From positions 1 through 33,128 of the forward strand of contig JAGGWK010000081.1 in assembly GCA_021157525.1 (NCBI GenBank): a stretch of 33,128 bases of DNA, in the 5' to 3' direction. The notes under the pieces are model-generated. The model searched no databases and was not told where the DNA came from. It saw nothing but the letters and a program-made list of their open reading frames with translations. Position numbers and translations under genes: made by a program. This document shows, in pieces, positions 1,312 to 33,033 of the stretch. The number at the start of each line of letters is the position of its first letter. The first letter of the stretch is position 1. Source of the stretch: Candidatus Cloacimonadota bacterium (GTDB taxonomy: Bacteria > Cloacimonadota > Cloacimonadia > Cloacimonadales > TCS61).

Positions 1312-2959
1312 GCTTCACCTTCTATTTCTTGCATTATTCGCTGCATCTGCGGTATGGAGCATCGTCATACGGGATATACAATTCCACGGCGCGACGCTCT
1401 TTTCCGAAGCCCAGTTGGCAAGCAGTATCCAGTCCCAGCCGGGTAATGAATTTCACTTTGCCACAGCTAATGAAGATGCTGCCCGGCTGTTGAACCGATA
1501 TCTGCAGGAACGCCATTTTACCATAAAGATATTTGGTCCCGAAGCCCGCACAAACAGTGATAACACGGTGAGCGTGATATTTACCATAGATGAGGCATCG
1601 GCGATGGCCCTGGAGACGTTGCGCTTTGATGGGAACCAATACATTTCCGATCAGCAGTTGCGGGATGCATTGCCAACCAGTCTGCTGTTGCGGGATATGC
1701 CATCTTACCTGGAAACCCTCCTCGATGTATACACTTCCTCGGGATTTCTTTTTGCTCAGGTAGCGTTGGATAGTTTGTGGCTGGCGGATAACGCTCTGGG
1801 TGTGGAATTGAAGATGTATGAGGGGCGGGAATGCCGATTTTCCCGCTATCGCTTTTTGGGAAATACTGCCACCCGAGAGCAAACACTGCTGAAGATTTCC
1901 CGTCTGACCCAGGAACGCACCTACACTCCTGCCATCCTTGACCAGGCAGCTGCCACCATCGCCCGTAAATCCTACATCCAATCCTGCACCATTACTCCTC
2001 TGGATGCAAACACGTTGCAGATAGAGGTAAAAGAGGGAAAGATGAGCAGTATTTCGGCGCTTTTGGGACTCAGCAGCGCTCACTCTTCTACCATCACCGG
2101 CTATGTGGATCTGGAATTTATGAATCTCTATGGCACCGACCGCTCCCTGGCATTTCATTGGCAGCAACTTAAAAAAGATCGCAGTTCCGTTGAGCTGGCG
2201 TATCACGAAGCCGGGCCACTTCGCTATCCGGTGAGTGGAGATATCAGCCTCTATCGGGAAGAAGTGGATTCTACCTACATCAAATCCAACGCAAACCTGC
2301 AGCTCTACTACTACACAGCCGCCCATGACTGGGGTCTGTCTGCATCCTGGGAGCAATACAGTCCCGGTACCAGAGACGATGCTCTGGCTATAGAGCGGGC
2401 GACCTACCGCACAATCGGCGCTTTTTGGCGTTACAACAACACCGACCACAGCTATAATCCCACTCGCGGGCAATCCACGGAAGTACACTACTACACCCGC
2501 ATCAGCAACCTCCAGGGTAAAAGCACGCCCCGGCAAGGGGCCGAAGCTTCAGTCATCCTGTACCACCCCATAAACAGCCGCACCGTGGTGAGTACCGGCA
2601 TCCATGGCAAAGTACTGGAAAACAAAGCTCTTAGTGCTTTCGACTATTTTTATCTGGGAGGAAATAAAAATCTCCGTGGCTTTGTAGAGGACGCCTTTTT
2701 TGGGTACCGGCTGGGATGGATAAATGCCGAGCTGCGCTATCTCCTGTCACGCAATTCTCGTGGCTTTGTGTTTGTGGATTATGCCGTGGTACAAAATCAG
2801 AACTACAGCTACTATGACTTAGTGGGAACCGGCGTGGGATTGCGCCTGCAAACCCGACTGGGATTGCTGGGAATTGACTACGGAATCGGGTATCATAACG
2901 GCACAATACGAAATCCCCTTGACGGAATCCTTCATGTTGGGATAAAAACCAATTTATAA
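1301..2959 (+). CDS. Omp85/TamA-like outer membrane protein (POTRA domains plus barrel)
   Basis: This is a 552-residue predicted outer-membrane protein. I place the start at the ATG at 1301, inside the ispG stop region, because the protein then begins with a normal signal peptide (MRIRLHLLFLALFAASAVWS). Residues about 20-235 look like three POTRA-type repeats (beta-alpha-alpha-beta-beta, with SIVIRDIQFHG and LETLRFDGN starts). Residues about 245-552 are a beta-barrel rich in alternating aromatics. The conserved Omp85 loop motif is present as GGNKNLRGF. The length fits TamA or short surface-antigen D15 proteins better than full BamA (about 800 residues). A role in assembly or transport of outer-membrane proteins is a family inference. 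Expression is probably coupled to ispG. Confidence 0.85.
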   Translation: MRIRLHLLFLALFAASAVWSIVIRDIQFHGATLFSEAQLASSIQSQPGNEFHFATANEDAARLLNRYLQERHFTIKIFGPEARTNSDNTVSVIFTIDEASAMALETLRFDGNQYISDQQLRDALPTSLLLRDMPSYLETLLDVYTSSGFLFAQVALDSLWLADNALGVELKMYEGRECRFSRYRFLGNTATREQTLLKISRLTQERTYTPAILDQAAATIARKSYIQSCTITPLDANTLQIEVKEGKMSSISALLGLSSAHSSTITGYVDLEFMNLYGTDRSLAFHWQQLKKDRSSVELAYHEAGPLRYPVSGDISLYREEVDSTYIKSNANLQLYYYTAAHDWGLSASWEQYSPGTRDDALAIERATYRTIGAFWRYNNTDHSYNPTRGQSTEVHYYTRISNLQGKSTPRQGAEASVILYHPINSRTVVSTGIHGKVLENKALSAFDYFYLGGNKNLRGFVEDAFFGYRLGWINAELRYLLSRNSRGFVFVDYAVVQNQNYSYYDLVGTGVGLRLQTRLGLLGIDYGIGYHNGTIRNPLDGILHVGIKTNL

Positions 2960-2978
2960 AATGAAATAAGGAGGAACG

Positions 2979-3794
2979 ATGGAGCACACTGGAAAATTAA
3001 AAGTCGGCGTTTATGTCGACGTATCTAATATCGCTCAAAATGGTGGTTATGGTATGCAGTATGATGTGTTGAGAAAATTTGCCTGCCGCAATGATGGGGT
3101 GGCTATACGGCTGAATGCCTATGTAGCCTTCGACGAAGAGAAGGCTGCACGAAATATTATTTATCGAAAAAAAACACAGAGCTTTCACTCACAATTACGG
3201 GATTTCGGGTTTAAAGTAATAGAAAAAAAAGTTAAATGGTATACCGATGAAAGTGGTGCCCGCTACGGAAAATCCAATGCAGACCTGGATATGGCCGTGG
3301 ATGCATTGATGCAATCAGAGCGATTGGATTATGTATTAATTGTAACCGGTGACGGCGATTTTATTCAGGTGGTTCGGGCGTTGCAAAACAAAGGATGCCG
3401 GGTAGAAGCCCTGGCTTTTAGTAATGTATCTCATGATCTCCGCAACGAAGCGGATGTCTTTACCTCGGGATATCTGGTTCCAAATCTGGTGGCATCCGAA
3501 GTAAATGGTGATCCCAAAAAACGGCGCAGCCGTGGCATCTGCTATGCCTATTATCCAGACAAAGGATATGGATTCATCCGGTTTTTGCGCAATGTAGAAG
3601 GTGGATTGTGGATTACCGATTCCCGCAAAGAAGAATCACCCTATGGCACGGCCTTTATCCATAGCTCAAAACTTCCCCCGGAAGTAGATTACAGTGCCCT
3701 GCCAAACAGAGAGATGATCTTTGAATTTGACATCAAGGAAGTGGAAGATCGCGGCCTCCAAGCTGAAAACGTAACGTTGGTTTATCAATATTGA
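2979..3794 (+). CDS. NYN-domain (LabA/DUF88) nuclease-like protein with C-terminal cold-shock domain
   Basis: This is a 271-residue protein of two recognisable parts. Residues about 7-170 form a NYN/PIN-fold domain with acidic candidates D14 (DVSNI), D102/D104 (NADLDMAVDA) and D125/D127 (TGDGDF). This is the metal-binding set of LabA-like ribonucleases. Residues about 185-271 resemble a cold-shock OB fold: KGYGFI (195-200) matches RNP1, AFIHSS (225-230) matches RNP2, and AENVTLV near the end matches the CspA C-terminus. An RNA-cleaving domain tethered to a nucleic-acid-binding domain is the natural reading; substrate unknown. AAGGAGG lies 5 bases before the ATG. It sits 19 bases after the barrel gene and 1 base before the phosphatase gene, so it belongs to this operon. 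Confidence 0.85.
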   Translation: MEHTGKLKVGVYVDVSNIAQNGGYGMQYDVLRKFACRNDGVAIRLNAYVAFDEEKAARNIIYRKKTQSFHSQLRDFGFKVIEKKVKWYTDESGARYGKSNADLDMAVDALMQSERLDYVLIVTGDGDFIQVVRALQNKGCRVEALAFSNVSHDLRNEADVFTSGYLVPNLVASEVNGDPKKRRSRGICYAYYPDKGYGFIRFLRNVEGGLWITDSRKEESPYGTAFIHSSKLPPEVDYSALPNREMIFEFDIKEVEDRGLQAENVTLVYQY

Positions 3795-12080: not shown

Positions 12081-15000
12081 TTAAAATCCTATCTTTCTGC
12101 CGGATGTTTTATCGGTGGGCTCCGGTGCCGGGCTCTCGTCAATCACCCGTTTGATATCATCGGAATGAATGGTGAAGAGGTCGCCGGTGGAGAGATCGGT
12201 GTTTTCGGCAATGCGGAAGGATTGAGCCTGCACCACTTTCTCAAAGATATTCCGCACCAGTCGTCCATTGCCAAAGGTGGCATTGCGGTTGGTGTAGCAT
12301 TGGTGGAAGTAACCGTGCAGCCGTTCTTCTGCTTCTTCGATGAGGGAAAATCCTTTCGATCGGGTAAGTAGTTTAAAGATACCCAGCAATTCATCCTGGT
12401 TATAATCCAGAAAATTGAAGTAGCGATTGAACCGCGATTCCAGTCCGGGATTGGATTTGATGAAGGCCTGCATCTCCTTTTTGTAGCCGGCCACGATCAC
12501 AATAAGGCGGTCGCGGTCGTCTTCCATGCGCTTCAGCAGGGTGTCGATGGCTTCCTGGCCAAAGTCGTTACCACTGCCTGCGGGCTTGAGGGTGTAGGCT
12601 TCATCTATAAAGAGAATGCCATCCAGCGCCTCGTCGATGAGGGCATTGGTGCGGGGTGCAGTCTGGCCTACATATTCCGCCACCAGTTTACTGCGATCCA
12701 CCTCGATCACATGTCCTTTCTTAAGGATGCCCAAAGCTTTGAAGATGCGTCCCATCAAACGGGCTACAGTTGTTTTGCCTGTGCCGGGAGGGCCGTAAAA
12801 TACGGTGTGCAGGGAAATGGGTGTGCCACTGTGCCCCTGCTCCGAACGCATCTGCTCCACCTGCAAAAAGCGCATCAGTTGCTGGATATCGTCTTTGATG
12901 TTATTCATGCCGATGAGCTTATCCAGTTCGGCCAGCACATCATCCAGGGATTCTTCGGGTTCTTCATTAAAATCGCTGCCAATCACCGCATTGATGTCGC
13001 CTTCGGTAATGGTGAGGAGGGTTTTTTCATCGATGTTCACGAACTCGGCAATGCGGAAGGATTGGATTTGAATCACCCGCTCCATCAGGTTGCGCACCAT
13101 GCGACCATTACCAAAGTTGGCGTCACGCTTGGAGTAGAGGTGCGTAAAATAGCGGAGCAATTTATCGGATGCATCTTCGGTGAGCTGGTACTGCTTGCTT
13201 TTGAGGAAAGCATTGAAAAGATAGAGCAGCTCATCGGGTTTGTAATCCAGAAAATTGAAATAACGGTTAAAGCGGGAGCGGAGGCCGGGATTGGAGGAGA
13301 GGAAGCGATCCATCTCGGTTTCGTATCCTGCCACGATAACCACCAGGCGTTCCCGTTCGTCTTCCATCCGTTTCAGGATAGTGTCGATAGCTTCCTGGCC
13401 AAAGTCTTTACCGCCTCCTTCGGGCTTGAGAGTGTAAGCTTCATCCACAAAGAGAATACCGTCCAACGCTTCATCTATTAGTTTATTGGTCTCTTTGGCT
13501 GTCTGGCCGATATATTCCGACACCAGTTTGCTGCGGTCAACCTCTACCACGTGGCCTTTTTTGAGGATACCCAGAGCGCGGAAGATTTTCCCCATCAGCC
13601 GGGCGACGGTGGTTTTGCCGGTGCCGGGAGGTCCCATAAACACGGTGTGCAACGAAAGAGGCATCGCTTCCATCCCCCGCTCTTTGCGCATTTTGTTGAC
13701 CCGCAAAAACTTCATCAATTGATCGATATCCTGTTTGATGTTCTCCATCCCCACCAAGGCGTTCAGCTCTTCCATCACCGCTTCCACATTTACAGGGCCG
13801 GGATCATCGCCAACGGATGAGGTGCTGGATGCAGAGCTTCCGGTGGTGCTGGATGTCGGTGGATTTGCCACAGCATCTCGGGCATTCTGCAGATTTTCTT
13901 TATACACATCGTCGGGACTGAGGGCGATGGCCTTTTCATAGAAAGGTATTGATTCGGCGTATTTTTCCAGCCAATACAGCACGTTTCCCACATGATTATA
14001 AAAGCCGCCGTTTTTATGCCCAGCTGCGATGGCTTTGCGTCCATATTCTTCTGCCATTGAATAGTCTTCGAGATTTTTGGCAGCGTACGAAACATTGGAA
14101 AGATAGAGATGATTATCGGGTTTTTTGACGATGGCATCCTTGTAATGAATGATAGCCTGAGCATAATTTTCCAGTCCATAATAGAGGTCTCCCAGCAGGT
14201 TGTGGTAATGTGCCGCCTGAGGCTTTATCTGGATGGCTTGCTGCACATAGGGAATGCCAGGCTGATAGTTGTCCATACGCTCGTAGCAGTAGCCGATATT
14301 GCCGAGATATTCTCCATTTCCAGGATGCAGCTGGTTAGACTTGATGTAGCAATCCAAGGCCTGTTGATACTCTTTTTTCTCAAAAAAAGTATCTCCCTTC
14401 GTATTCCATCGTTTTGCTTCAGCAGCATTGGCGGGAGTGGGGCTACTGAATTGTGTTCTACCGGATGCATCCCGCTCTTCTACAGCATTTTTACGATTGT
14501 TGATAAAGGTCTCATTGCCAGGGTCGCGGCTGATTGCTTTGTCATAAAGCGCAATGGCACCCTGGAAATCCTTCAACCAGAAAAGAATATTTGCCACATG
14601 ATTGTAGAAGATTGCGCTATCTCGTCCTAGTTCGATGGCTTTCAGCCCATGGATTCTGGCAGTTTCATACTGTTCCAAATTCTTGGCGGCATAGGCGATA
14701 TTAGCATGATAAAGGTGCTTGGTGCCGTCTTGAGTGATGGCATCCTTGTAATGAATGATAGCCTGAGTATAGTTTTCCAGCCCATAATAGAGGTCTCCCA
14801 GCAGGTTGTGGTAATGTGCCGCCTGAGGTTTTACCTGAATAGCCTGTTGAACATAGAGAATGCCCGGTTGATACTGCTTGAGCCGCTCGTAGCAGTAGCC
14901 GATGTTGGAGAGATATTCGCTATTCCCAGGATGCAGCTGATTTGCTTTGAGATAGCAATCCAGGGCTTTTGAAAAATCCTTATTCTCGAAATATCCATCG

Positions 15001-16454
15001 CCGGTTTTGTTCAGTTTTTTGGCTTCTTCTCCCGTGTCAGGCGCATATTTCCGGGCATTATTCAGGTTGTTCTGATACACTTCGGTATTCGGTTCTTTGT
15101 CTATCGCCCGCTGATACCATGGAATCGCCAGCCTGTACTTGCCATCATTGTAGAGGCAATTGCCCACCATGTTGTAGGCGCTGGCAGTATCTTTCCCGCT
15201 GGCCACTGCTTTTTCAAAGTGTAGCAGTGCTTCTTTCCATTTTTTCTGGCTATAGTAGCTATGAGCGATATTCATCCAGCCCTGGGCGTAGGAAAGGTCT
15301 GCGCCGACGGAGCGCTGATACCACACCAGAGCGGTCTCTTTCTTTTTGAGGTTACTGTAGCACACGGCGATGTCGTTGTATGCCACGGCAAAATGGGGGT
15401 CGACTTCGATGGCTTTCCGGTAGTGCTGGATGGCGGTGACATAGTCCTTCTGATCGTAAAAGGTGTCGCCGGTTTTGTAGTGCATCCGGGCTTGTTCACG
15501 ACTGTAGGCCGGAGGAGCTTGATGCATCCTTTCTTGAGTAAAGGTTACGTTTTTCTGATACGTCTGGTCAGCTGGATCTAGAGTGGCAGCTTTTTGGAAA
15601 TAGGGCAAAGCCTGGGAATAGAGCTGTAAATTGGCAAAGGCGATACCGGCACGATTGGCAGACAGTGCGTCCAGCGGGCCAAGAGCTTCTTGTCTCTGCA
15701 CAAAATAGAGAGCGCGGAGATTGTCTTTCAGGGTGAGACACGTCCCGGCTAGACTGCCAAAGGCCGATTGATATTGGGGATTAATAACCAGTGCACGCTC
15801 GTACCACAGCTGGGCAAGATCATAGTTGTCCAACCAGGAATTGGAGACGGCGATATTGTAATATGTCACTTCGCTGTTGGGATTGAAAAGCATGGCGCGC
15901 TTGTAGCTTTCGATGGATTCAGCATAATTTTTGGCATTGAATGCTGTGCTGGCTGCGGCGGTATGTTTTTTCGATTCTTCCAGATCGTAGGTGGGTTCGG
16001 CCGCCAATTCATCTTTTGCCAGTTTCAGGTTGTCTTTGAAAACCTGCTCATCATTATTGAGGATAATTGCCTTTTGATAATATTCTGCTGCCATACGATA
16101 ATTGGCCAGATTGTAAAAAACAATACCTGCACGATTCATCAAAGAGGCATCTTCCAAACCCCTTACCAAGGCATCGTCTATCACATCCAGAGCGCGAAGG
16201 AATTCTTCGCTTTGTACCAGGCTGGAGATGAGAAAATCGATGGTTACGGCATGTGTGGGCTGAATGGCTCTGGCCTGGAAAAAAAGCTTGGCGGCAGCGG
16301 TATATTTCTCTGTTTTGTAAAGACATAAAGCCAAATTAAACAGAGTATCATGATCATTGGGATTCTTTGTCAGAGACTTTTCAAAAAGAGGGATTGCTTT
16401 TTTAAATTTTCCGGCATTCATGTGCCGCAATCCTGCATCGTAATTCTTATCCAT
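12081..16454 (-). CDS. Giant TPR protein with two CbbX/SpoVK-type AAA+ domains
   Basis: This protein has 1457 residues. I choose the ATG at 16454 because GGAG lies 6 bases before it; the ATG four codons earlier lacks a site. Residues 1-862 are about 20 tetratricopeptide repeats in five super-repeats, each closing with a YxxNLxxAR-like segment. A Ser/Thr-rich linker (about 863-886) follows. AAA+ domain 1 has Walker A GPPGTGKT at 941-948, Walker B ILFVDE at 1000-1005, arginine-finger candidates R1059/R1061, and GNGRMVRN as sensor 2. AAA+ domain 2 has Walker A at 1221-1228 and the same later motifs. Such domains form hexameric remodelling ATPases (Rubisco activase CbbX, SpoVK, EccA). No signal peptide or membrane segment, so cytoplasmic. 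The substrate is unknown; TPRs probably supply it. Confidence 0.9.
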   Translation of the reverse strand: MDKNYDAGLRHMNAGKFKKAIPLFEKSLTKNPNDHDTLFNLALCLYKTEKYTAAAKLFFQARAIQPTHAVTIDFLISSLVQSEEFLRALDVIDDALVRGLEDASLMNRAGIVFYNLANYRMAAEYYQKAIILNNDEQVFKDNLKLAKDELAAEPTYDLEESKKHTAAASTAFNAKNYAESIESYKRAMLFNPNSEVTYYNIAVSNSWLDNYDLAQLWYERALVINPQYQSAFGSLAGTCLTLKDNLRALYFVQRQEALGPLDALSANRAGIAFANLQLYSQALPYFQKAATLDPADQTYQKNVTFTQERMHQAPPAYSREQARMHYKTGDTFYDQKDYVTAIQHYRKAIEVDPHFAVAYNDIAVCYSNLKKKETALVWYQRSVGADLSYAQGWMNIAHSYYSQKKWKEALLHFEKAVASGKDTASAYNMVGNCLYNDGKYRLAIPWYQRAIDKEPNTEVYQNNLNNARKYAPDTGEEAKKLNKTGDGYFENKDFSKALDCYLKANQLHPGNSEYLSNIGYCYERLKQYQPGILYVQQAIQVKPQAAHYHNLLGDLYYGLENYTQAIIHYKDAITQDGTKHLYHANIAYAAKNLEQYETARIHGLKAIELGRDSAIFYNHVANILFWLKDFQGAIALYDKAISRDPGNETFINNRKNAVEERDASGRTQFSSPTPANAAEAKRWNTKGDTFFEKKEYQQALDCYIKSNQLHPGNGEYLGNIGYCYERMDNYQPGIPYVQQAIQIKPQAAHYHNLLGDLYYGLENYAQAIIHYKDAIVKKPDNHLYLSNVSYAAKNLEDYSMAEEYGRKAIAAGHKNGGFYNHVGNVLYWLEKYAESIPFYEKAIALSPDDVYKENLQNARDAVANPPTSSTTGSSASSTSSVGDDPGPVNVEAVMEELNALVGMENIKQDIDQLMKFLRVNKMRKERGMEAMPLSLHTVFMGPPGTGKTTVARLMGKIFRALGILKKGHVVEVDRSKLVSEYIGQTAKETNKLIDEALDGILFVDEAYTLKPEGGGKDFGQEAIDTILKRMEDERERLVVIVAGYETEMDRFLSSNPGLRSRFNRYFNFLDYKPDELLYLFNAFLKSKQYQLTEDASDKLLRYFTHLYSKRDANFGNGRMVRNLMERVIQIQSFRIAEFVNIDEKTLLTITEGDINAVIGSDFNEEPEESLDDVLAELDKLIGMNNIKDDIQQLMRFLQVEQMRSEQGHSGTPISLHTVFYGPPGTGKTTVARLMGRIFKALGILKKGHVIEVDRSKLVAEYVGQTAPRTNALIDEALDGILFIDEAYTLKPAGSGNDFGQEAIDTLLKRMEDDRDRLIVIVAGYKKEMQAFIKSNPGLESRFNRYFNFLDYNQDELLGIFKLLTRSKGFSLIEEAEERLHGYFHQCYTNRNATFGNGRLVRNIFEKVVQAQSFRIAENTDLSTGDLFTIHSDDIKRVIDESPAPEPTDKTSGRKIGF
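14130..14240. repeat. Internal DNA repeat copy A (TPR super-repeat 5)
   Basis: This segment nearly matches 14736-14846 at the nucleotide level; both run from GATGGCATCCTTGTAATGAA through the region coding for AAHYHNLLGDLYYGLENY. The offset is about 606 bases. It lies in the most conserved stretch of a roughly 200-residue duplication within the TPR-AAA gene. Confidence 0.8.
14736..14846. repeat. Internal DNA repeat copy B (TPR super-repeat 4)
   Basis: This is the partner of 14130-14240. It codes for the same AAHYHNLLGDLYYGLENY segment with only scattered, mostly silent differences. That suggests recent duplication or gene conversion, since the flanking parts of the two super-repeats have diverged much further. 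Confidence 0.8.
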
Positions 16455-16492
16455 AAGACACTCCATTTTGCTGATTTATTTTTGCATATTGT

Positions 16493-16789
16493 TTATTGAA
16501 TTTCGAATTCCACTGTCAAACTTTTTCTACCGTGATTTTGTGATTTTGGTTTGATGATTAATCGTTTGGGAAGTTCAAGATCGAGAGCATATTTCCCTGT
16601 AAAATCCCCCTTTAACCTGTGGCATCTTCCTATCCGATGCGTAACCATCAATCCAAGATTGGGGATGCTTTCCAATTCATTTATCCGTTGAATTATCATC
16701 CTGGCATTTCCCGACCCATAAATCGTGGTGAGCTTTTTGAGATCACCAACAGATTCCCGAAGTTTGCGGTCTGATATTTCAACTTTCAA
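16493..16789 (-). CDS. higB: HigB/RelE-superfamily toxin-like protein, no antitoxin gene beside it
   Basis: This is a 98-residue protein of the RelE/ParE fold, the HigB-like killer proteins that cleave mRNA on ribosomes. NARMIIQRINELESIPNL and GRCHRLKGDFTGKYALDLELPKRLIIKP match the usual helix then strand series. The frame has no ATG; I use the TTG at 16787-16789, about 9 bases after an AAGAG site. HigB genes normally have a HigA (Xre-type) antitoxin gene just downstream. Here an ATGCAAAAATAA follows, then the TPR-AAA gene 38 bases on. It could be a solitary or inactivated toxin, or be controlled by an antitoxin elsewhere. Confidence 0.75.
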   Translation of the reverse strand: MKVEISDRKLRESVGDLKKLTTIYGSGNARMIIQRINELESIPNLGLMVTHRIGRCHRLKGDFTGKYALDLELPKRLIIKPKSQNHGRKSLTVEFEIQ

Positions 16790-16923: not shown

Positions 16924-17256
16924 CTCTTACACATCTATCTTCAGTGTAAGAGCATTAACTCCATTTTCATAGGAAAAGGCAATACTCTGAGCATTGTTAC
17001 GAATAATTACCACACCGATGTCATCGCCTTCCAGCAGATTTATTTGTTTTCCCCGGTAGCAGAAAGTAAGTTCTCGTTTCCGGCTTTTTCTGAATATGCC
17101 AGAGAAATATCGGCATTGATGAGAGAATAACCGACCTTGCACAGTTCTACGAATCACCGCCAGCACATCGCTTGCCATGGTGGAATCCAAGGTGGAGGTA
17201 GGTTCGTCAAAGAGGATGATCTCGGGGTTCATAGAGAGGCACCGGGCGATGGCCAC
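16924..17256 (-). pseudogene. Broken ABC-transporter ATPase (amino-acid/GlnQ type) fused to an unrelated tail
   Basis: The frame begins inside the family: VAIARCLSMNPE, ILFDEPTSTLDSTMASDVLAV is the Walker B/D-loop region of a polar-amino-acid ABC ATPase. The Walker A half and most of the LSGGQ signature are absent. After about 40 residues the frame is lost. Coding-like text (YSLINADISLAYSEKAG, then INLLEGDDIGVVIIRNNAQS) continues in shifted frames and looks like another protein altogether. Deletion plus frameshift make it nonfunctional. A normal protein of this type has about 240 residues. Confidence 0.7.
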
Positions 17257-19441: not shown

Positions 19442-19717
19442 AAAACCTCTGATCTTTCGGGGAATATAACTTCCCTGATTATTTTGAGATGCAACCAAAA
19501 CCGACCATGTGCCGGTGCAAAGCATCTGCTTGCTGGTAAAGATTCATCAGCCCAAAGATTGAGCAAGAAATTTATTTTTCTCCAAAGCTGATAATCCCGA
19601 TGGTTAAAAGGAGAACCTTTCTTCGGGGGCAAAATCCTCAAAATTAACGATGATTAAGGTTGACATGCACTTATGAGTACCCAACGTGACACCATTAATA
19701 ATCATACGGAGGAACAA
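19442..19717. promoter_or_regulatory. Divergent control region of msrC and the lysine/citrate operon
   Basis: These 276 bases must contain both promoters. On the plus strand a TTGACA lies at 19660-19665, but no good -10 follows at 16-18 bases. A small hairpin AAAGG-AGAA-CCTTT is at 19607-19620. I looked for a lysine riboswitch core and did not see one. Confidence 0.4.
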
Positions 19718-21040
19718 ATGGCCAAGAAAGTTACCATCTTTGGTGCCGGTCTTGTCGCAAAGCCCATGGTCGATTATTTGGCAGGTCATGGCATCGATGT
19801 TACCATCTGCGATATCGACATCACCAAAGCCCAGGCTCTCGCTGCACCACACACAAACGTAACACCCCTCGCAGTAGACAGTAGCGATGAAACCCTGGTG
19901 GAATCACTGATAGCAAAAAACGACCTGGCAGTAAGCCTTTTACCTGCTGTGATGCATCCGATTATCGCAAAAAAATGCATCTCCCTGGGCAAACACATGG
20001 TTACTGCATCCTATATAAGTCCCACCATGACGGCCATGGATAACGACGCAAAAGCTGCCGGAGTTACCATCCTTAATGAAATCGGCGTGGATCCCGGCAT
20101 CGACCACATGAGCGCCATGCGGGTGTTTGATCATGTAAAAGACAACGGCGGTCAGATCACCAGTTTTATGTCCTATTGCGGCGGTTTACCAGCACCGGAT
20201 GCAAACACCAATCCCTTGGGATACAAGTTTTCCTGGGCTCCCAAGGGCGTACTTATCGCAGCGGGAAATAACGCAACCTATCTCAAAGATGGAGCTGTGG
20301 TAGAAGTACCCGGCAAAGAGCTCTTCAGCCATTATTGGCTGCTGGACGTTCCTGGCATTGGCACCCTGGAAGCTTACCCAAATCGTAACTCTCTGGATTA
20401 TATAGACATCTATGGCTTAAAAAACGTAAAAACCATGTACAGGGGCACCCTGCGTAATGTAAGCCATTGCGATTTGTGGGTTGTTTTTGGCAAAATGGGA
20501 TTCTTTAAACAAGAGCCACAATTTGAAAATCTCAGTGGCACAGTGCGTAACTTCATCGCCACCAAAATAATGGGTTTGGCATCCGATGAAGATCTTGAAG
20601 CGGAAATCGCTGCACGCTACAAAATCCCCATCACCAGCGTAACCCTGAAGAAAATGGGCTGGCTGGGATTCTTTGACGAAACACCACTACCTATCACTTC
20701 CGGCGGCGCCATAGACGTCCTCACCGCCCTGATGCTGGACAAGATGTCCTACGCCCCCGGAGAACGGGACCTGCTGGTGATGCATCATGAATTTGAAGCA
20801 ACCTATGGTGACAAAACCCAACGTATTACCTCAACCTTGGTTGACTACGGCATTTCCGGCGGAGACACCTCCATGTCCCGCACGGTATCGTTACCCGCTG
20901 CCATCGGTGTTCGACTCTTGCTGGAAAACAAGATCACCCGTCGTGGCGTGATCAGACCCATCACCCGTGATATTTATGAACCGGTTCTCAATGAATTGGA
21001 AACCATGGATATCAGGCTAATCGAACGCTTTTACGATTAG
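19718..21040 (+). CDS. Saccharopine dehydrogenase, glutamate-forming (LYS9-like)
   Basis: It interconverts saccharopine with 2-aminoadipate 6-semialdehyde and glutamate, using NAD(P). I place the start at the ATG at 19718 behind GGAGG; 15 further upstream codons are open but lack a site. The 440 residues open with a Rossmann loop, VTIFGAGLVAKPMVDYLAG (4-22), as in LYS9 (GxGxVAxP). EIGVDPGIDHMSAMRVFD and YCGGLPAPDANTNPLGYKFSW are the catalytic-domain signatures. It is the first gene of the 11-kb operon, 111 bases before the partner reductase. In animals the two activities are fused in AASS; here they are separate and in reverse order. Direction (lysine breakdown or synthesis) is not decided by sequence. 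Confidence 0.93.
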   Translation: MAKKVTIFGAGLVAKPMVDYLAGHGIDVTICDIDITKAQALAAPHTNVTPLAVDSSDETLVESLIAKNDLAVSLLPAVMHPIIAKKCISLGKHMVTASYISPTMTAMDNDAKAAGVTILNEIGVDPGIDHMSAMRVFDHVKDNGGQITSFMSYCGGLPAPDANTNPLGYKFSWAPKGVLIAAGNNATYLKDGAVVEVPGKELFSHYWLLDVPGIGTLEAYPNRNSLDYIDIYGLKNVKTMYRGTLRNVSHCDLWVVFGKMGFFKQEPQFENLSGTVRNFIATKIMGLASDEDLEAEIAARYKIPITSVTLKKMGWLGFFDETPLPITSGGAIDVLTALMLDKMSYAPGERDLLVMHHEFEATYGDKTQRITSTLVDYGISGGDTSMSRTVSLPAAIGVRLLLENKITRRGVIRPITRDIYEPVLNELETMDIRLIERFYD

Positions 21041-21053
21041 GTATCAGAATTTG

Positions 21054-21091
21054 ATTTCGGCAGTTGCTCCTTTTTGTTCAACTGCCGAAAT
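21054..21091 (+). promoter_or_regulatory. Intra-operon hairpin with anti-Shine-Dalgarno match to the next gene
   Basis: Arms ATTTCGGCAGTTG (21054-21066) and CAACTGCCGAAAT (21079-21091) are perfectly complementary over 13 bp with a 12-base loop. Bases 21062-21071 (AGTTGCTCCT), half in the arm and half in the loop, are the exact reverse complement of AGGAGCAACT at 21142-21151, the ribosome binding site of the reductase gene. The two pairings exclude each other, so this could be a translational switch. No T-tract follows, so it is not a standard terminator. Confidence 0.5.
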
Positions 21092-21151
21092 TGGCTTCTA
21101 AACAGGCTTGGAAATTGCATCCCAACAGAAAAAAAAACGACAGGAGCAACT

Positions 21152-22444
21152 ATGAAAAAACTGGGAATAATTAAGGAAACGAAAAATAAATGGGAGCGGC
21201 GAGTTGCCCTCAATCCCGCAGCTGTTGCAGAGCTTGTACAAAAAGGATTTAGCGTGGTGGTAGAGCCCTCAGATATTCGCATCTACTCCGATGAAGCCTA
21301 TGCCAAAGCCGGAGCTCAACTTTCAGCCGATCTCACTGGATGCGACTTCATTATTGGCGTGAAGGAAATCCCCATTCCCCGCATCGTAGCCGGCGTACCC
21401 CATCTCTTTTTCTCCCACACCATTAAGGGACAAGACTACAATATGCCTCTGCTTCAACACTTTCTCGATACACAAACCACTTTGATGGATTATGAGCGCA
21501 TCGTGGATAATCAGGGCCGACGCCTGGTATTTTTCGGCACTTTTGCCGGTAATGCAGGGATGGTGGATACCCTGTGGGGGCTTGGGCAACGCATCAAGGC
21601 ACTGCACAACTTGGATACACCATTCCTCAAGATGAAGCATGCCTACCAATACGATGGATTACAAGACGCCCTGGATAAGATAAAACTCATCGGTGATGAA
21701 ATTTCCGAGACTGGTTTACCCGCTGAAATCTGTCCCCTCAATATCTTCATAATGGGCTACGGTCACGTGGCCAAAGGATGCCAGAACGTGCTGGATATGC
21801 TGCCCGTAGAATACATCACTCCCGACCAATTGCCCGCTGTGGAACAGTACAACGACCCCCACAAAATCTATGTAGTGGTCTTTAAAGAAGAGCACATGGT
21901 GGCACGCAAGGATGGTGGGGCGTTTGGCCTGCAAGATTATTTTGCACACCACGATGCCTATGAAAGCATTGTCCATCGGTATCTTCCCTATTGCAGTGTA
22001 TATATGAACGCCATTTATTGGGAACCTGATTGCCCGGTATTTTTACCAAATTCCGAACTGGCAAAGCTGCAGGACGGTAAACTGATCATCATAGGCGACA
22101 TCACCTGCGACATCCAGGGATCGGTAGAATGCACCGTAAAATCCACCAAACCCGATAATCCCATCTTCATCTTTGACGCCAAAACCGGCACCCATGTGGA
22201 TGGCCTGACGGGCAACGGTGTGGCAAATTGCGCCGTGGACAACCTGCCCTGCGAATTTTCCCGGGAAGCGTCAGACTGTTTTTCCGCAGCTCTGATGCCC
22301 TTTATGGAGCTCACCTTACGAAACGATTATGGGCTACCAATCGAAGAATCAACCTTACCTGACGAAATGAAAAAAGCGTGCATTGCACATCAGGGTGCAT
22401 TGCAACCCCGCTACCAATACTTAGCAGAGTTTTTAAAATCATAG
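21152..22444 (+). CDS. Lysine-2-oxoglutarate reductase (saccharopine dehydrogenase, lysine-forming; LKR/LYS1-like)
   Basis: It joins lysine and 2-oxoglutarate to saccharopine with NAD(P)H, or runs in reverse. The start is the ATG at 21152 behind AGGAG. The 430 residues have the alanine dehydrogenase/transhydrogenase-like fold: an N-terminal half with IIKETKNKWERRVALNPAAV, FFSHTIKGQDYNMPLL and GRRLVFFGTFAGNAGMVDTL, and a nucleotide-binding half with FIMGYGHVAKGCQNVL. Length and order match the LKR half of animal AASS (about 450 residues) rather than alanine dehydrogenase (about 370). The adjacent saccharopine dehydrogenase confirms the pathway. Its ribosome binding site can pair with the upstream hairpin. 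The stop is 9 bases before the CitD-CitE gene. Confidence 0.9.
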   Translation: MKKLGIIKETKNKWERRVALNPAAVAELVQKGFSVVVEPSDIRIYSDEAYAKAGAQLSADLTGCDFIIGVKEIPIPRIVAGVPHLFFSHTIKGQDYNMPLLQHFLDTQTTLMDYERIVDNQGRRLVFFGTFAGNAGMVDTLWGLGQRIKALHNLDTPFLKMKHAYQYDGLQDALDKIKLIGDEISETGLPAEICPLNIFIMGYGHVAKGCQNVLDMLPVEYITPDQLPAVEQYNDPHKIYVVVFKEEHMVARKDGGAFGLQDYFAHHDAYESIVHRYLPYCSVYMNAIYWEPDCPVFLPNSELAKLQDGKLIIIGDITCDIQGSVECTVKSTKPDNPIFIFDAKTGTHVDGLTGNGVANCAVDNLPCEFSREASDCFSAALMPFMELTLRNDYGLPIEESTLPDEMKKACIAHQGALQPRYQYLAEFLKS

Positions 22445-22453
22445 GAGGATGTT

Positions 22454-23671
22454 TTGGCTACTATTGCCACCGCAGGAAACAAGGGTAAATCAGTCCGCTC
22501 AGACTGTTTTGTAAGCCTCGAGCTTACCACAAAAGGTAGCATCGAGATAGACCTCACGAGCAAAGTAAAAAACCTTTTTGGCGATGCCATCACCGCCACA
22601 TGCCATGAAGTTCTGCACTTCTATGGCATCGAACACGCCATAGTCACCATAGAAGACTCCGGCGCCCTGGACTATGTGCTGGCAGCACGGCTGGAATATG
22701 CTATCAAGCAACTCACCGGTACAGGCAAGGAATTTCTTCCCCGGATGCTTCCGCAAAATACCTACGCTACAGCCCGAGATCGCTATCGCCGCAGCCGCCT
22801 CTATTTGCCGGGGAATACACCCAAGTTGGCCATCAATGCCGGGCTGCACCATCCCGACGGCCTGATCCTGGATCTGGAAGACTCGGTGGCTCCTGCCAAA
22901 AAAGACGAAGCACGCATCCTGGTACGAAACACCTTGCTGGCCTGCGACTTTTACGGCACCGAGCGCATGGTGCGCATCAATCAAATGCCACTGGGACTGG
23001 ATGATCTGGAGATGATGATTCCTCACAATGTAAACTTGGTGCTTCTCCCCAAATGCGAGTCTGCCGATGAGATCAAAGCGCTGGAAACAAAAATAGAAGG
23101 AGTAAAAACCAAGCATAATTGCAACAATCCTGTGTGGATAATGCCTATCATCGAAAGTGCTCTGGGAGTAATGAAAGCATACGAAATCGCCACTGCATCC
23201 GAGCATGTAGTAGCACTGGCTATTGGCCTGGAAGATTATACCGCAGACCTGGGAACACAACGCACCCGGGAGGGCACCGAATCCTTCTTCGCCAGATGCA
23301 TGCTGGTAAACGCAGCCCGCGCTGCCGGCATCCAGGCTATCGATTCGGTATTTTCCGACGTAAGTAACATGGAAGCATTGCGCCAGAATGTGCTCACTTC
23401 CAAGTCTCTGGGATTTGACGGCATGGGCTGCATCCATCCCCGCCAGATTCCCATAATCCACGACGCCTTTGCTCCCAACGACAAGGAAATCGATAAAGCT
23501 CAAAAAATAGTAAACGCCTTTTACAAAGCTGAAGAACAGGGCCTCGGTGTGGTTTCTCTGGGCAGCAAAATGATCGACCCTCCTGTGGTGAAACGCGCTC
23601 AACGAACCATTCACATGGCCATCGAAGCAAAGAAAATTTCGGCAGATTGGAGAGAGTCTTATGGCAAATAA
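22454..23671 (+). CDS. citDE: Citrate lyase gamma-beta fusion (CitD acyl carrier + CitE)
   Basis: This 405-residue protein joins two normally separate citrate lyase subunits. It starts at TTG 22454, 5 bases after AGGAGG; the nearby ATG at 22449 is out of frame. Residues 1-95 are CitD: S16 in SVRSD aligns with the serine carrying the phosphoribosyl-dephospho-CoA arm, followed by LTSKVKNLFGDAI and DSGALDYVLAARLE. Residues about 112-405 are CitE, the citryl-acyl-carrier lyase of the HpcH/HpaI fold: RLYLPGN (115-121), LILDLEDSVAP (137-147), MVRIN (172-176), and GCIHPRQIPI. The substrate could also be citramalate or another citrate-like acid. It overlaps citF by 11 bases. The accessory genes citC, citX and citG are not in the window. 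Confidence 0.88.
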   Translation: MATIATAGNKGKSVRSDCFVSLELTTKGSIEIDLTSKVKNLFGDAITATCHEVLHFYGIEHAIVTIEDSGALDYVLAARLEYAIKQLTGTGKEFLPRMLPQNTYATARDRYRRSRLYLPGNTPKLAINAGLHHPDGLILDLEDSVAPAKKDEARILVRNTLLACDFYGTERMVRINQMPLGLDDLEMMIPHNVNLVLLPKCESADEIKALETKIEGVKTKHNCNNPVWIMPIIESALGVMKAYEIATASEHVVALAIGLEDYTADLGTQRTREGTESFFARCMLVNAARAAGIQAIDSVFSDVSNMEALRQNVLTSKSLGFDGMGCIHPRQIPIIHDAFAPNDKEIDKAQKIVNAFYKAEEQGLGVVSLGSKMIDPPVVKRAQRTIHMAIEAKKISADWRESYGK

Positions 23672-25217
23672 TGAAGTAAAAAACGCTGTCGGCCGCATGG
23701 TGCCAACACAGATAAACGGACAGGAAGCGATCCCCTTTAAAGGTTTGAATAAACACCGCCCCACCGGACGCAAATTTGGTCCACACATCCCTACTACTAT
23801 CGATTACCCGACAGATGGAAACAAGGTAATCCACAGTTTAAAAGAAGCGTTGCAAAAAGCCGGATTGCGGGATGGCATGACCATTTCCACCCATCATCAT
23901 CTGCGCAATGGCGACTTGGTAGCCAACGAGATTTTCCGCATCGCTCACGATATGGGCATCAAAGATCTGGTGTGGTTCCCTTCGGCATCTTTCCCCTGCC
24001 ATGAACCTGTCATCGAGTACCTTAAAGACGGCACAATTCACCACATAGAAGGTAGCATGAATGGGCCACTGGGACGCTTTACCACTCGTGGCGGCATGAA
24101 AGGCGTAGGCATCCTGCGTTCTCATGGTGGCCGAGTTCAAGCGGTGCAGGATGGTGAGGTAAAAATTGATATCGCAGTTCTGGCCGCCCCGGCAGCAGAT
24201 AAATTTGGCAATGCCACCGGCCAACGGGGGCCTTCAGCCTGCGGCGTGCTGGGCTATGCAAAGCCCGATTACCTCTATGCCGAAAACGTTATCGTCGTCA
24301 CAGACCATCTGGTAGATTTCCCCTGTTTCCCCATGGAAATAGAAGGAAATTACGTAGATAGCGTGGCTCTGATAGATAAAATAGGCATTCCTGAAAAAAT
24401 TATTTCCGGCACCACACGCATCACCAAAAGCCCCGACCGGCTGTTAATCGCCGATCTCACAGCCCGTTTCGTAGAGGCCACCGGCATGTTACGGGACGGC
24501 TGCTACATGCAGAGCGGCGCTGGTGGAACATCTCTGGCTATCGGCTATTTCACCCATCAAATCTTAAAGAAAAAGGGATGGAAATCCCGTCTGGGCTTTG
24601 GCGGAAGCACTCAATACATGGTAAACATGCTGGAAGATGGCACTATGGAGCACATCCTGGATGCACAAGCTTTTGACCTGGAAGCAGTTCGCAGCATCAG
24701 CGAAAACCGCAACCACCACCAATACCCGGTATTTAACGCCTACAATTTCCACTCCAAAGGCAACCTCACCTCCATGATGGACATCATGATATTGGGCGCC
24801 ACCGAAGTGGATGTGAACTTCAATGGCAATGTGGTAACTCACTCAGACGGCTACATGCTTCACGGTATCGGCGGCTGGCAAAACTGCCTTCACGCCAGAA
24901 ACGTGATTCTCCCTGTGCCGCTGTTCCGCGACCGCATCCCGGTAATCCGCGACGAAGTAACCACCATCGTTGGCCCCGGCGAGCTCATCGACGTCATCGT
25001 CACCGAACGTGGCATCGCGATCAATCCTCTGCGCCAGGATCTGCTGGATGCCGCCAAAGGCTCTGGCCTGCCTATCAAAACCATAGAAGAGCTCAAGGCC
25101 GAAGCCGACCGCATCTGTGGCAAAGTATCCAAACCAAAGATTGGAGACAAAGTTGTGGGCGCCATCAAGTGGGTGGACGGCACCGTGATCGACGTGGTTC
25201 GCAACATAGAGGCATAA
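23661..25217 (+). CDS. citF: Citrate lyase alpha subunit, acyl-carrier transferase (CitF)
   Basis: CitF exchanges the acetyl group on the acyl-carrier arm for citrate, giving citryl-carrier that CitE cleaves to oxaloacetate. The 518-residue length is normal for CitF. Family segments include STHHHLRNGDLVAN, GPLGRFTTRGGMKG, RGPSACGVLGYA, MQSGAGGTSLA and NGNVVTHSDG. The C-terminal TIVGPGELIDVIVTERGIAINP resembles other CoA-transferase-like proteins. The ATG at 23661 lies within the end of the CitD-CitE gene (11-base overlap) with GGAGAGAG before it. Citramalate lyase alpha is a close homologue, so the substrate is probable rather than certain. Confidence 0.92.
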   Translation: MANNEVKNAVGRMVPTQINGQEAIPFKGLNKHRPTGRKFGPHIPTTIDYPTDGNKVIHSLKEALQKAGLRDGMTISTHHHLRNGDLVANEIFRIAHDMGIKDLVWFPSASFPCHEPVIEYLKDGTIHHIEGSMNGPLGRFTTRGGMKGVGILRSHGGRVQAVQDGEVKIDIAVLAAPAADKFGNATGQRGPSACGVLGYAKPDYLYAENVIVVTDHLVDFPCFPMEIEGNYVDSVALIDKIGIPEKIISGTTRITKSPDRLLIADLTARFVEATGMLRDGCYMQSGAGGTSLAIGYFTHQILKKKGWKSRLGFGGSTQYMVNMLEDGTMEHILDAQAFDLEAVRSISENRNHHQYPVFNAYNFHSKGNLTSMMDIMILGATEVDVNFNGNVVTHSDGYMLHGIGGWQNCLHARNVILPVPLFRDRIPVIRDEVTTIVGPGELIDVIVTERGIAINPLRQDLLDAAKGSGLPIKTIEELKAEADRICGKVSKPKIGDKVVGAIKWVDGTVIDVVRNIEA

Positions 25218-25227
25218 ATGGTTTCTC

Positions 25228-25255
25228 CAGAGGGAACACTTCCCCGGGGTCTCTG
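25228..25255. repeat. Small palindrome in the citF-isocitrate dehydrogenase spacer
   Basis: CAGAGG (25228-25233) pairs with TCTCTG (25250-25255) with one wobble, and GGGAA-CAC-TTCCC at 25232-25244 is an alternative internal stem. It is followed by an A-rich run to the next ribosome binding site. It may be a processing site or a worn relative of the palindromes further on. Confidence 0.35.
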
Positions 25256-25295
25256 TAAAAATAAAAAAAGTTAAATGAAAAATCAGGAGGATATC

Positions 25296-26483
25296 ATGGC
25301 AAAGAGAACAATCGTTACAATGCCCGGAGATGGCATTGGAAAAACCGTATTACCCGAGGCAATCCGCGTATTGGATGCAGTGGGCTTTGAAGCAGAATAT
25401 GTACACGCAGACATCGGTTGGGAATTTTGGTGTAAAGAGGGAAATCCTCTTCCCCGGAGAACCCTTGATCTTTTGGAGAAGCACCACATTGCCCTCTTCG
25501 GTGCTATCACATCCAAACCAAAAACCGAAGCCGCCAAAGAGTTGGCTCCAGAACTGCAGGACAAAGGGTTTGTGTATTACAGCCCCATCGTTTCCTTGCG
25601 TCAGCATTTCCAGCTGGATATCTGCCAGCGTCCCTGCAAAACCTTCAAGGGTAATCCACTGAACTTCATTCGCCGCGGACCAAACGATACCATCCAGGAA
25701 CCGGAAGTTGATGTGGTGGTTTTCCGCCAAAACACCGAAGGCCTTTATGGTGGTGTGGAATGGACAAATCCCAGCGATCAAGTGTATGATGCCATGATGA
25801 CGCACCCGAAATTCGCCAAAAACTTCGGCTGGTCTCCCAGAGAAGAATTGGCCATCTCTACCCGTATCTTTACAAAAAAATATTCGGAACGTATCTGCCG
25901 TGCCGCCTTTGAATATGCCAGAAAATTCGGCTACAAACGGGTGACACTGTGCGAAAAACCAAATGTTATCCGGGAAACCAGTGGCATGATGCTGGCCATC
26001 TGTCGTCAACTGGAAAAAGAATTCCCGGAAATCCGGTTCAACTTTACAAACATCGATGCTCAAATGATGTGGCTGACCAAAGACCCTGAAAATTATGGTA
26101 TTATTATCGCAGGAAACATGTTCGGCGACATCGTATCAGACGGCTTTGCCGGATTGATCGGCGGTCTGGGCTTTGCCTGTAGCGCCAATATCGGTGAAAA
26201 AGTGGCCATCTTCGAGCCCACTCACGGTTCTGCTCCAAAATACCAGAAGCTCAATCCATCCATCGTAAATCCCATCGCCATGATCATGAGTGCCTGCATG
26301 ATGCTTGATCACATCGATGAAGTGGAAAAAGCAAATCGCATCCGCGCCGCCATTGCCAAAGTGGTGGAAGAAGGTAAATACCGGGCATACGATATGCTGA
26401 AACTTCGGGGATCACAGGAAGTGCTGAATCAAGGCGCTGCCTCCACTACCGAAATGGCTGACGCCATCATCGCCGCTCTGTAA
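25296..26483 (+). CDS. icd: Isocitrate (or homoisocitrate) dehydrogenase, probably NADP-dependent
   Basis: This is a beta-decarboxylating dehydrogenase that oxidises isocitrate to 2-oxoglutarate. The start ATG at 25296 has AGGAGG; 395 residues. Substrate residues: S96 and R102 in SPIVSLRQ, R112, R144 (FRQNTEGLYGG), Y151, K221 (CEKPNV); metal ligands D254, D278 and D282 (FGDIVSDG). S96 sits six before the arginine, as S113 does in E. coli Icd. HGSAPKY (310-316) keeps the Lys-Tyr pair that binds the NADP 2'-phosphate in E. coli, whereas NAD enzymes usually have Asp there. The SPIVxLR wording also occurs in yeast homoisocitrate dehydrogenase, so homoisocitrate is a real alternative. It lies between citF and the HD gene. 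Confidence 0.85.
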   Translation: MAKRTIVTMPGDGIGKTVLPEAIRVLDAVGFEAEYVHADIGWEFWCKEGNPLPRRTLDLLEKHHIALFGAITSKPKTEAAKELAPELQDKGFVYYSPIVSLRQHFQLDICQRPCKTFKGNPLNFIRRGPNDTIQEPEVDVVVFRQNTEGLYGGVEWTNPSDQVYDAMMTHPKFAKNFGWSPREELAISTRIFTKKYSERICRAAFEYARKFGYKRVTLCEKPNVIRETSGMMLAICRQLEKEFPEIRFNFTNIDAQMMWLTKDPENYGIIIAGNMFGDIVSDGFAGLIGGLGFACSANIGEKVAIFEPTHGSAPKYQKLNPSIVNPIAMIMSACMMLDHIDEVEKANRIRAAIAKVVEEGKYRAYDMLKLRGSQEVLNQGAASTTEMADAIIAAL

Positions 26484-26492
26484 AACCATATC

Positions 26493-26526
26493 TTCCTGCA
26501 TCCTGGCTGGGGTCTGGACGCAGGAA
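26493..26526. repeat. Imperfect palindrome in the icd-HD spacer
   Basis: TTCCTGC (26493-26499) and GCAGGAA (26520-26526) form the outer stem, with TCC/GGA pairing one mismatch further in. It is a looser relative of the palindrome 28 bases downstream. Confidence 0.5.
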
Positions 26527-26553
26527 ACGTAGCTACGAAGATACCTCTGTTTT

Positions 26554-26577
26554 GTTCCCAGGCCCCAGCTTGGGAAC
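26554..26577. repeat. REP-like palindrome, GTTCCCA type
   Basis: GTTCCCA (26554-26560) and TGGGAAC (26571-26577) enclose G-GC-CCCA-GC-T, so the stem continues by a wobble and two GC pairs to a 4-base loop. The GTTCCCAnGC...GCnTGGGAAC pattern is a widespread REP-type element in bacteria and is shared with the two palindromes at 27171 and 27220. Confidence 0.65.
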
Positions 26578-26599
26578 ACTTTATCTATAAGGAGCAGAC

Positions 26600-27154
26600 A
26601 TGCAAATTAACGAACTGTGGCCGGAATTGGCCTGGATTGAAGATGATGAGCTGCGGAGCAAAGTAACCCGCACCTGGGAACTGGCTCTGGAGAGAAGTGT
26701 GCTTACCCCTAGAGATTTGCAAACCATTCCCTTTACCCTTCTGTGTGGCCCAGACCTCAAGGTCACATTTATGGATCACAAACGCAGCGTGGTTCACATA
26801 GCCAAAGCCGCCGGCGAAAAGTGTAACGAATTTTATCACGGAGAATTGCCCGTGAACATGGATGTGCTCATTGCCGGCGCCATCCTGGCCGACGTAGGCA
26901 AGCTGTTGGAGTATGTTCTGGATGCAAACGGCAAAGCCGTGCAAGGTACCTATGGCAAATACCTGCGCCACCCCTTCAGCGGTGTTTCTCTGGCCGAAGA
27001 ATGCGGCTGCCCCCCGGAAGTGTGCCACATCATCGCAACTCACGCCGGCGAAGGTGATATGGTAAAACGCACCACCGAAGCATATCTGGTGCATCATGCC
27101 GATTTCATGACCTTCCTTCCCTTCAAAAGTCGTTTGAAAATCAGAGAAACATAA
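26600..27154 (+). CDS. HD-domain protein with altered HD doublet
   Basis: This is a 184-residue protein with the plan of an HD metal-dependent phosphohydrolase: H60 in MDHKRSVVHIAKAAGE, then AGAILADVGKLLEY (92-105), H124 (RHPFSG), H148 (ATHAG) and VHHADFM (164-170). The catalytic HD pair is A97-D98 instead of His-Asp, so one metal ligand is missing and a classical nucleotidase or phosphodiesterase activity is doubtful. It may bind a ligand or use other histidines. AAGGAG lies 6 bases before the ATG. Its position inside the citrate/aconitase operon, flanked by palindromes on both sides, suggests a regulatory or repair role for the pathway. I cannot name a closer family. Confidence 0.75.
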   Translation: MQINELWPELAWIEDDELRSKVTRTWELALERSVLTPRDLQTIPFTLLCGPDLKVTFMDHKRSVVHIAKAAGEKCNEFYHGELPVNMDVLIAGAILADVGKLLEYVLDANGKAVQGTYGKYLRHPFSGVSLAEECGCPPEVCHIIATHAGEGDMVKRTTEAYLVHHADFMTFLPFKSRLKIRET

Positions 27155-27170
27155 CATGATCAGTCAGGCG

Positions 27171-27192
27171 TTTCCAAGCAGGAGCCTGGAAA
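27171..27192. repeat. REP-like palindrome, TTTCCA type
   Basis: TTTCCA (27171-27176) and TGGAAA (27187-27192) enclose A-GC-AGGA-GC-C. Same architecture as 26554-26577: outer stem, one odd position, a GC/GC pair and a 4-base loop. Confidence 0.6.
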
Positions 27193-27219
27193 TGAGCCAT
27201 AACAAATAAACGTATTTTC

Positions 27220-27247
27220 TGGTTTCCTAGCCCCTGCCTGGAAACCA
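27220..27247. repeat. REP-like palindrome, TGGTTTCC type
   Basis: TGGTTTCC (27220-27227) and GGAAACCA (27240-27247) form an 8-bp stem around TA-GC-CCCT-GC-CT. It ends 4 bases before the ribosome binding site of the first hydro-lyase gene, so folding could affect its translation. Confidence 0.65.
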
Positions 27248-27258
27248 AAGGAGCAAAC

Positions 27259-29061: not shown

Positions 29062-29202
29062 GGAATTGGAAATTGAGAATTAGAAATGGGAACTGCGAAG
29101 AATTCTTGGTGCAATTACTAAGAAATCGCAGGATTGATCGAATTGTTAGGAATAATGAGATCATTTCTAAGTTGAAATTTCTCATTGAATTCAGGAGGAA
29201 TT
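29062..29202. other. AT-rich spacer between the two hydro-lyase genes
   Basis: It contains GAATT-rich near repeats, a 10-base palindrome AAGAATTCTT (29098-29107), and a 9-bp inverted repeat TTAGAAATG (29080-29088) / CATTTCTAA (29162-29170) that could fold the spacer into one large hairpin before the ribosome binding site. No clear promoter. Confidence 0.4.
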
Positions 29203-31046: not shown

Positions 31047-31166
31047 TATTTGTGGCCAGGCTATGCTTTCTGCGAAATTGATGGGATAAATGTAAATATA
31101 ATTTTACAAAAATGTCTTCTTGATTACTTTGTCTTTCATAACATGATGAATATCAAGGAGAGAGAA

Positions 31167-32877: not shown

Positions 32878-32929
32878 CACAAAAGGATAATACATATCGG
32901 CAATAAATATCCTCCCGTGAAAGAGCACA

Positions 32930-33033
32930 GTTTTAGCTGGGAGTCGGTCTTTCTTCAACCTGAAAGTCAATAAACTGGGATCATTCAGGTTGATAGCAAG
33001 CCTCCCCTCATCACAAAAATCGTGTGCTAAAAC
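32930..33033 (+). promoter_or_regulatory. Nested inverted repeats before the DMT transporter gene, possible structured RNA
   Basis: Three pairs of complementary segments are nested in correct order: GTTTTAGC (32930-32937) with GCTAAAAC (33026-33033), GGGAG (32939-32943) with CTCCC (33002-33006), and CAACCTGAA (32956-32964) with TTCAGGTTG (32984-32992). The element ends 42 bases before the transporter ATG. I recognise no known riboswitch; it could also be a small mobile palindrome. Confidence 0.4.

Follow-up and report, generated by a model that had tools for sequence, protein, structure and literature searches.

A TPR protein with two CbbX-type AAA+ domains in a Cloacimonadota bacterium, a probable dedicated remodelling chaperone

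The window analysed here, a whole stretch of 33,128 nucleotides from a Candidatus Cloacimonadota bacterium (contig JAGGWK010000081.1), encodes a protein in which a long TPR belt precedes two AAA+ domains, designated D1 and D2, both retaining all key residues. We propose that this TPR-CbbX-CbbX protein is probably a cytosolic chaperone dedicated to remodelling, belonging to the CbbX/SpoVK/EccA clade and combining a TPR client belt with two ATPase motors; this reading is supported by the clade signatures of the domains, by their intact motifs and because their best solved relatives are CbbX and EccA1. The component parts are ordinary, and the combination of a long TPR belt with two CbbX-type motors was met once in the genomes searched. 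We found no description of a TPR plus tandem CbbX architecture in the open-access literature, subscription papers lying outside the search.

The gene and the parts of its product are located as follows, with residues numbered from the first ATG (four are to be subtracted for the likely start):

12081..16466, minus strand: TPR-CbbX-CbbX ORF, 1461 aa counted from the first ATG
13878..16454, minus strand: TPR belt of five super-repeats, aa 5-863, from Pfam TPR_1/TPR_2 and super-repeat alignment
12972..13778, minus strand: AAA+ domain D1, aa 897-1165, CbbX/SpoVK/EccA clade, all key residues present
12135..12941, minus strand: AAA+ domain D2, aa 1176-1444, sister of D1, all key residues present

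A second ATG, at position 16454, would yield a protein of 1457 aa and is likely the true start, because it has a GGAG six bases before it (GGAGTGTCTTATG); this supports the start chosen in an earlier, sequence-only reading of the same DNA. That reading had also described five TPR super-repeats followed by two CbbX-type AAA+ domains, a domain content borne out by Pfam and by the super-repeat alignment. Over the belt, Pfam TPR_1 gave E=1.2e-84, with 11 stretches individually significant. The super-repeats are 146, 160, 161, 190 and 201 aa long; units 4 and 5 show 60% identity, and all other pairs 21-30%. Our reading of their alignment suggests about 22 TPRs, four in each of units 1-3 and five in each of units 4-5. 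An AlphaFold2 model of the TPR part, built from one or three sequences, was too poor for use (pLDDT 46, pTM 0.26). By inspection, the N-terminus has no recognised signal peptide or membrane segment, which is why we describe the putative chaperone as likely cytosolic.

Key residues and family membership

Pfam recognises two copies of PF00004 and two of AAA_lid_6 (PF17866), the lid expected of the CbbX/SpoVK/EccA clade, whose two stretches reached E=1.5e-32. The clade is further marked by GY in sensor 1, by an Asn that precedes the arginine finger and by a sensor-2 arginine (PMC10659427), and both D1 and D2 display these signatures, as AGY, NPGL and GNGR; on sequence, the two domains are assigned to this clade of classical AAA+ proteins.

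D1 and D2 are 65% identical across 276 aa. Their Walker A lysines are K951 and K1231, respectively, their Walker B DE pairs occupy residues 1008-1009 and 1288-1289, the pore-loop Tyr is at 985 and 1265, and the sensor-2 Arg is R1122 in D1 and R1402 in D2. The arginine fingers, R1065 and R1345, both align with residue 194 of CbbX, which we take to be the finger of that protein; the Arg aligned with this residue is the constant arginine of the alignment. The sole difference noted between the domains at key sites is R1063 in D1, two residues before the finger, where D2 has E1343; relatives differ at this position. The alignment thus confirms the earlier claim that both copies keep intact Walker A, Walker B, arginine-finger and sensor-2 motifs. 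For each domain, the closest solved structures are those of CbbX and EccA1 (E 1e-53 to 1e-57).

Members of the clade bear varied N-terminal domains (TPRs among them, in EccA), act as chaperones with narrow targets and show no link to peptidases, and SpoVK is confined to sporulating Firmicutes and has a short, unique N-terminal domain (PMC10659427). The protein could be conceived as an orthologue of EccA, SpoVK or CbbX with a known job, that is, in type VII secretion, spore MurG activation or Rubisco repair, and its whole-protein scores of 577.7, 534.7 and 461.6 bits indeed pass the NCBIfam cut-offs for SpoVK, EccA and CbbX, respectively. These cut-offs are cleared because the scores of two domains add up, whereas each domain alone fails all three: D1 and D2 score 303 and 288 bits with the SpoVK model (TIGR02881, cut-off 423), 282 and 265 bits with the EccA model (TIGR03922, cut-off 467) and 235 and 234 bits with the CbbX model (TIGR02880, cut-off 459). 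Likewise, searches of the whole genome (2.23 Mb, 98.5% complete) gave no match to the Rubisco large subunit (PF00016), WXG100 (PF06013) or SpoIVA (TIGR02836), absences that are informative because each marker search matched control genomes. The sequence-only reading had noted no Rubisco, ESX or spore genes nearby, which holds in the window and extends, for these three marker families, to the genome. With single-domain scores below the cut-offs and WXG100, SpoIVA and Rubisco absent from the genome, membership of EccA, SpoVK or CbbX was rejected, and we regard such orthology, refuted on the tests made, as extremely improbable.

The three families nonetheless offer the nearest comparisons. EccA (EccA1 structure 9lur, E 2e-57) also places a TPR region ahead of CbbX-type AAA+ sequence, but it contains one such AAA+ domain, its N-terminal region of ca. 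270 residues is unmatched by the window TPRs, and its ESX context is absent here; only model positions 273-553, and none of positions 1-272, find a match in our protein. The contrast with EccA drawn by the sequence-only reading was therefore a fair one. The red-type Rubisco activase CbbX (3syk, 3zuh) aligns with D1 and D2 in fold, Walker A and B, pore Tyr, arginine finger and sensor 2, but it is a single domain of ca. 300 aa without TPRs, and this genome lacks Rubisco. SpoVK gives the highest single-domain family score, although each window domain stays under its 423 bits. A practical corollary is that other tandem CbbX-type proteins may carry SpoVK or EccA names in public annotation, through summed domain scores.

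Relatives and origin of the tandem

We searched for relatives in the phylum of the window (124 other genomes, all of one class) and in Bacteroidota. Apart from one divergent tandem, none of the 124 other genomes of the phylum contained a strong relative of the AAA+ pair. The exception, found in a genome of the window's own order (G038), is a tandem CbbX-type protein at positions 1411-3414 (minus strand) of locus L011, with 35-37% identity; a PP2C-like sequence, read by eye, starts in the downstream ORF, and the locus includes a run of unknown residues. Strong matches came from 104 of the 395 Bacteroidia genomes, and the best of them were mostly two-domain proteins of ca. 870 aa; proteins with two to four CbbX-type domains in tandem are common in Bacteroidota. 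The architecture had been presented as unusual, which was overstated, with tandem CbbX domains common in Bacteroidota and TPR-like three-domain proteins also present there; uniqueness of the tandem is ruled out by these two- and three-domain proteins.

We distinguished three classes among the Bacteroidota proteins. Class A (L009, L010 and L132-L147) resembles the window protein in having two tandem CbbX-type AAA+ domains, both intact, but these proteins are ca. 870 aa long, their N-terminal region is not of TPR type, and their domains are 44% identical within a chain and of older origin. In the one class A N-terminal region scanned, the best 25 Pfam matches included only AAA-type families. Each of the 18 two-domain relatives checked has both AAA+ copies intact, so that the possibility raised earlier, that one copy might be inactive in all relatives, does not hold.

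Class B (L114-L120 and L122-L130), from Bacteroidota other than Bacteroidia, shares with the window protein a TPR-like N-terminus followed by tandem CbbX-type domains, but has three AAA+ domains in ca. 1200-1360 aa and a short (ca. 450 aa), weak TPR region; TPR-type families appeared among the best 25 Pfam matches in four of six proteins scanned. Six of the 48 class B AAA+ domains are degenerate. An ABC ATPase and a PF16949 permease follow half of the 16 class B genes (L115, L116, L119, L120, L122, L125, L129 and L130), within ca. 35 nt or overlapping. Class C (L112, L113, L121 and L131) combines a zinc ribbon, judged by reading the sequence, with a first AAA+ domain that is degenerate and three or four further copies; all four loci also encode a protein kinase, a PP2C phosphatase and an FHA/zinc-ribbon protein.

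The nearest domains found outside the window, with 57% identity to D1/D2, belong to the proteins L192 and L193 (genomes G958 and G900), which differ from the window protein in having one AAA+ domain, ca. 450 aa and a non-TPR N-terminus. Phage and plasmid matches were mostly single-domain and nowhere covered 80% of a query consisting of the TPR part and D1; a scan of viral contigs found nothing.

In an IQ-TREE tree of the AAA+ domains (57 rows), D1 and D2 were sisters (support 99/94), and they remained so after addition of L192 and L193 (98/96). Separate groups are formed by class A D1, by class A D2 and by each of the three class B domains, and class B D2 joins class A D2 (100/99); we did not find in the trees any grouping of the window D1 with the D1 of the class A or B proteins, or of its D2 with theirs. 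The sister relation of D1 and D2 therefore indicates a separate duplication, and we infer that the window tandem arose within its own gene, independently of the older tandem and triple proteins of Bacteroidota; a shared origin with the latter is rejected by the trees. The window tandem also looks the younger one, judging from the 65% identity between its domains as compared with means of 44-48% within class A and B chains.

Arrangement of the two motors

An AlphaFold2 model of the AAA pair, built from one or three sequences, had a pLDDT of 64 and a pTM of 0.37. Domain by domain, its best structure match was CbbX, and end to end it matched two-domain chains of the p97/Cdc48 type with an rmsd of 17-19 A; at this low confidence and high rmsd, the model does not establish the spatial arrangement of D1 and D2.

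Two geometries can be envisaged for the same chaperone function. In one of them, D1 and D2 would lie side by side in one six-member ring made of three chains (D1-D2-D1-D2-D1-D2), as would suit their near equality (65% identity), which same-ring duplicates could show, the linker of only ca. 10 residues between them (D1 ends at 1165 and D2 begins at 1176) and the two or three copies present in relatives, numbers that divide six. Class C proteins, however, have four or five domains, which are not divisors of six, and class B argues against mixed rings in a different way. All six class B domains without the Walker B acidic residues also lack their own arginine finger, and none of the other 42 has lost it, a pattern drawn from related, and hence non-independent, sequences (one change is common to L129 and L130) and one that whole-domain decay could also yield. 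In a mixed ring, the finger of a dead domain would serve the neighbouring intact site, and because of this the joint loss favours rings of one domain type, stacked; the rule is not universal, since the degenerate first domain of class C retains its finger Arg. We thus consider a mixed ring unlikely, and two stacked rings a plausible arrangement for the window protein, by analogy with these relatives.

Genomic neighbourhood and proposed function

The window also contains dprA and genes for a CGGC protein, a TonB receptor, TetR proteins and a CPBP protease; none is a known partner of the clade, and no client gene adjoins the TPR-AAA gene in the window. The contig fits the genome because its dprA resembles the copies in 30 genomes of the same family (43-60% identity, with one partial match of 66%). 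In 16 loci of the same family, each spanning up to 15 kb, dprA had none of the other 23 compared window genes nearby, and an empty-site comparison at dprA gave no insertion site because the family does not preserve gene order. The GC content of the TPR-AAA gene matches that of its flanks, with no sign of recent transfer. Elsewhere in the window, a plus-strand run at 19673-30978 comprises two saccharopine/alanine-dehydrogenase-type genes, CitE, CitF, an isocitrate-dehydrogenase-like gene and two aconitase-family genes, and is possibly a lysine or 2-oxoacid chain-extension cluster.

Directly upstream of the TPR-AAA gene lies a small ORF:

16493..16789, minus strand: RelE/ParE (HigB)-like toxin ORF, 98 aa, 33-36% identity to annotated RelE/ParE toxins

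It ends 26 nt upstream of the TPR-AAA ORF, on the same strand, and the two might possibly share a transcript. In Sinorhizobium, a relative of the toxin is followed by a HigA antitoxin, whose place is taken in the window by the TPR-AAA gene. This arrangement could suggest an anti-phage or toxin-linked ATPase, acting either as a component of a defence cassette or as a partner of the toxin with a chaperone-like role. Such a role would agree with the inclusion of SpoVK-family ATPases in extended CoCoNuT cassettes (PMC11090510) and with the restriction of the TPR-CbbX-CbbX protein to a single genome among those searched for its phylum. However, PADLOC returned only weak matches (TRIP13, 65 bits; IetA, 60 bits), and called no defence system, and no IetS-like partner was recognised; the 98-aa ORF matches no Pfam or NCBIfam family and may itself be a remnant, with an ABC-ATPase fragment just beyond it; and the GC content does not set the gene apart from its flanks. 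We therefore deem a defence or toxin-linked role quite improbable. The fragment is an ORF at 16927-17256 (minus strand), similar by eye to part of an ABC ATPase (ILFDEPTSTLDS) and probably a gene remnant. At 31050-32291 (plus strand), 14 kb from the toxin-like ORF, the window encodes a protein with an HTH and an M78 peptidase-like part; GC content falls to 0.37 at 31501-33000, at this gene and the contig end, compared with 0.44-0.52 elsewhere in the window.

In the dedicated remodelling chaperone that we favour, the belt of ca. 22 TPRs would bind a client, delivering one particular protein or assembly to the motors, and the two CbbX-type motors would pull it by means of their pore-loop tyrosines, with ATP hydrolysed at both D1 and D2. 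Here, ATPase activity, ring assembly and threading are predicted from homology, and recruitment by the TPRs and the stacking of two rings are likewise putative.

Considering its relatives, we tentatively give a little less than an even chance to the broader idea that the CbbX clade, familiar for its single-ring chaperones, has repeatedly evolved multi-ring machines through duplication of the motor within a gene, exchanging the N-terminal belt to choose the client. Such machines would comprise two, three or four intact copies, with TPRs, a non-TPR region or a zinc ribbon as belts. The protein described here, whose TPR belt is the longest among those compared, would exemplify the two-ring form.

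CbbX, SpoVK and EccA, the characterised members of the clade, are chaperones that each have a single motor and serve a single client. If the tandem copies form stacked rings, the clade would allow one-ring and multi-ring machines with nearly identical motors to be compared. In the Bacteroidota relatives, the conserved partners (an ABC transporter pair and a kinase-phosphatase-FHA set) offer concrete client candidates.
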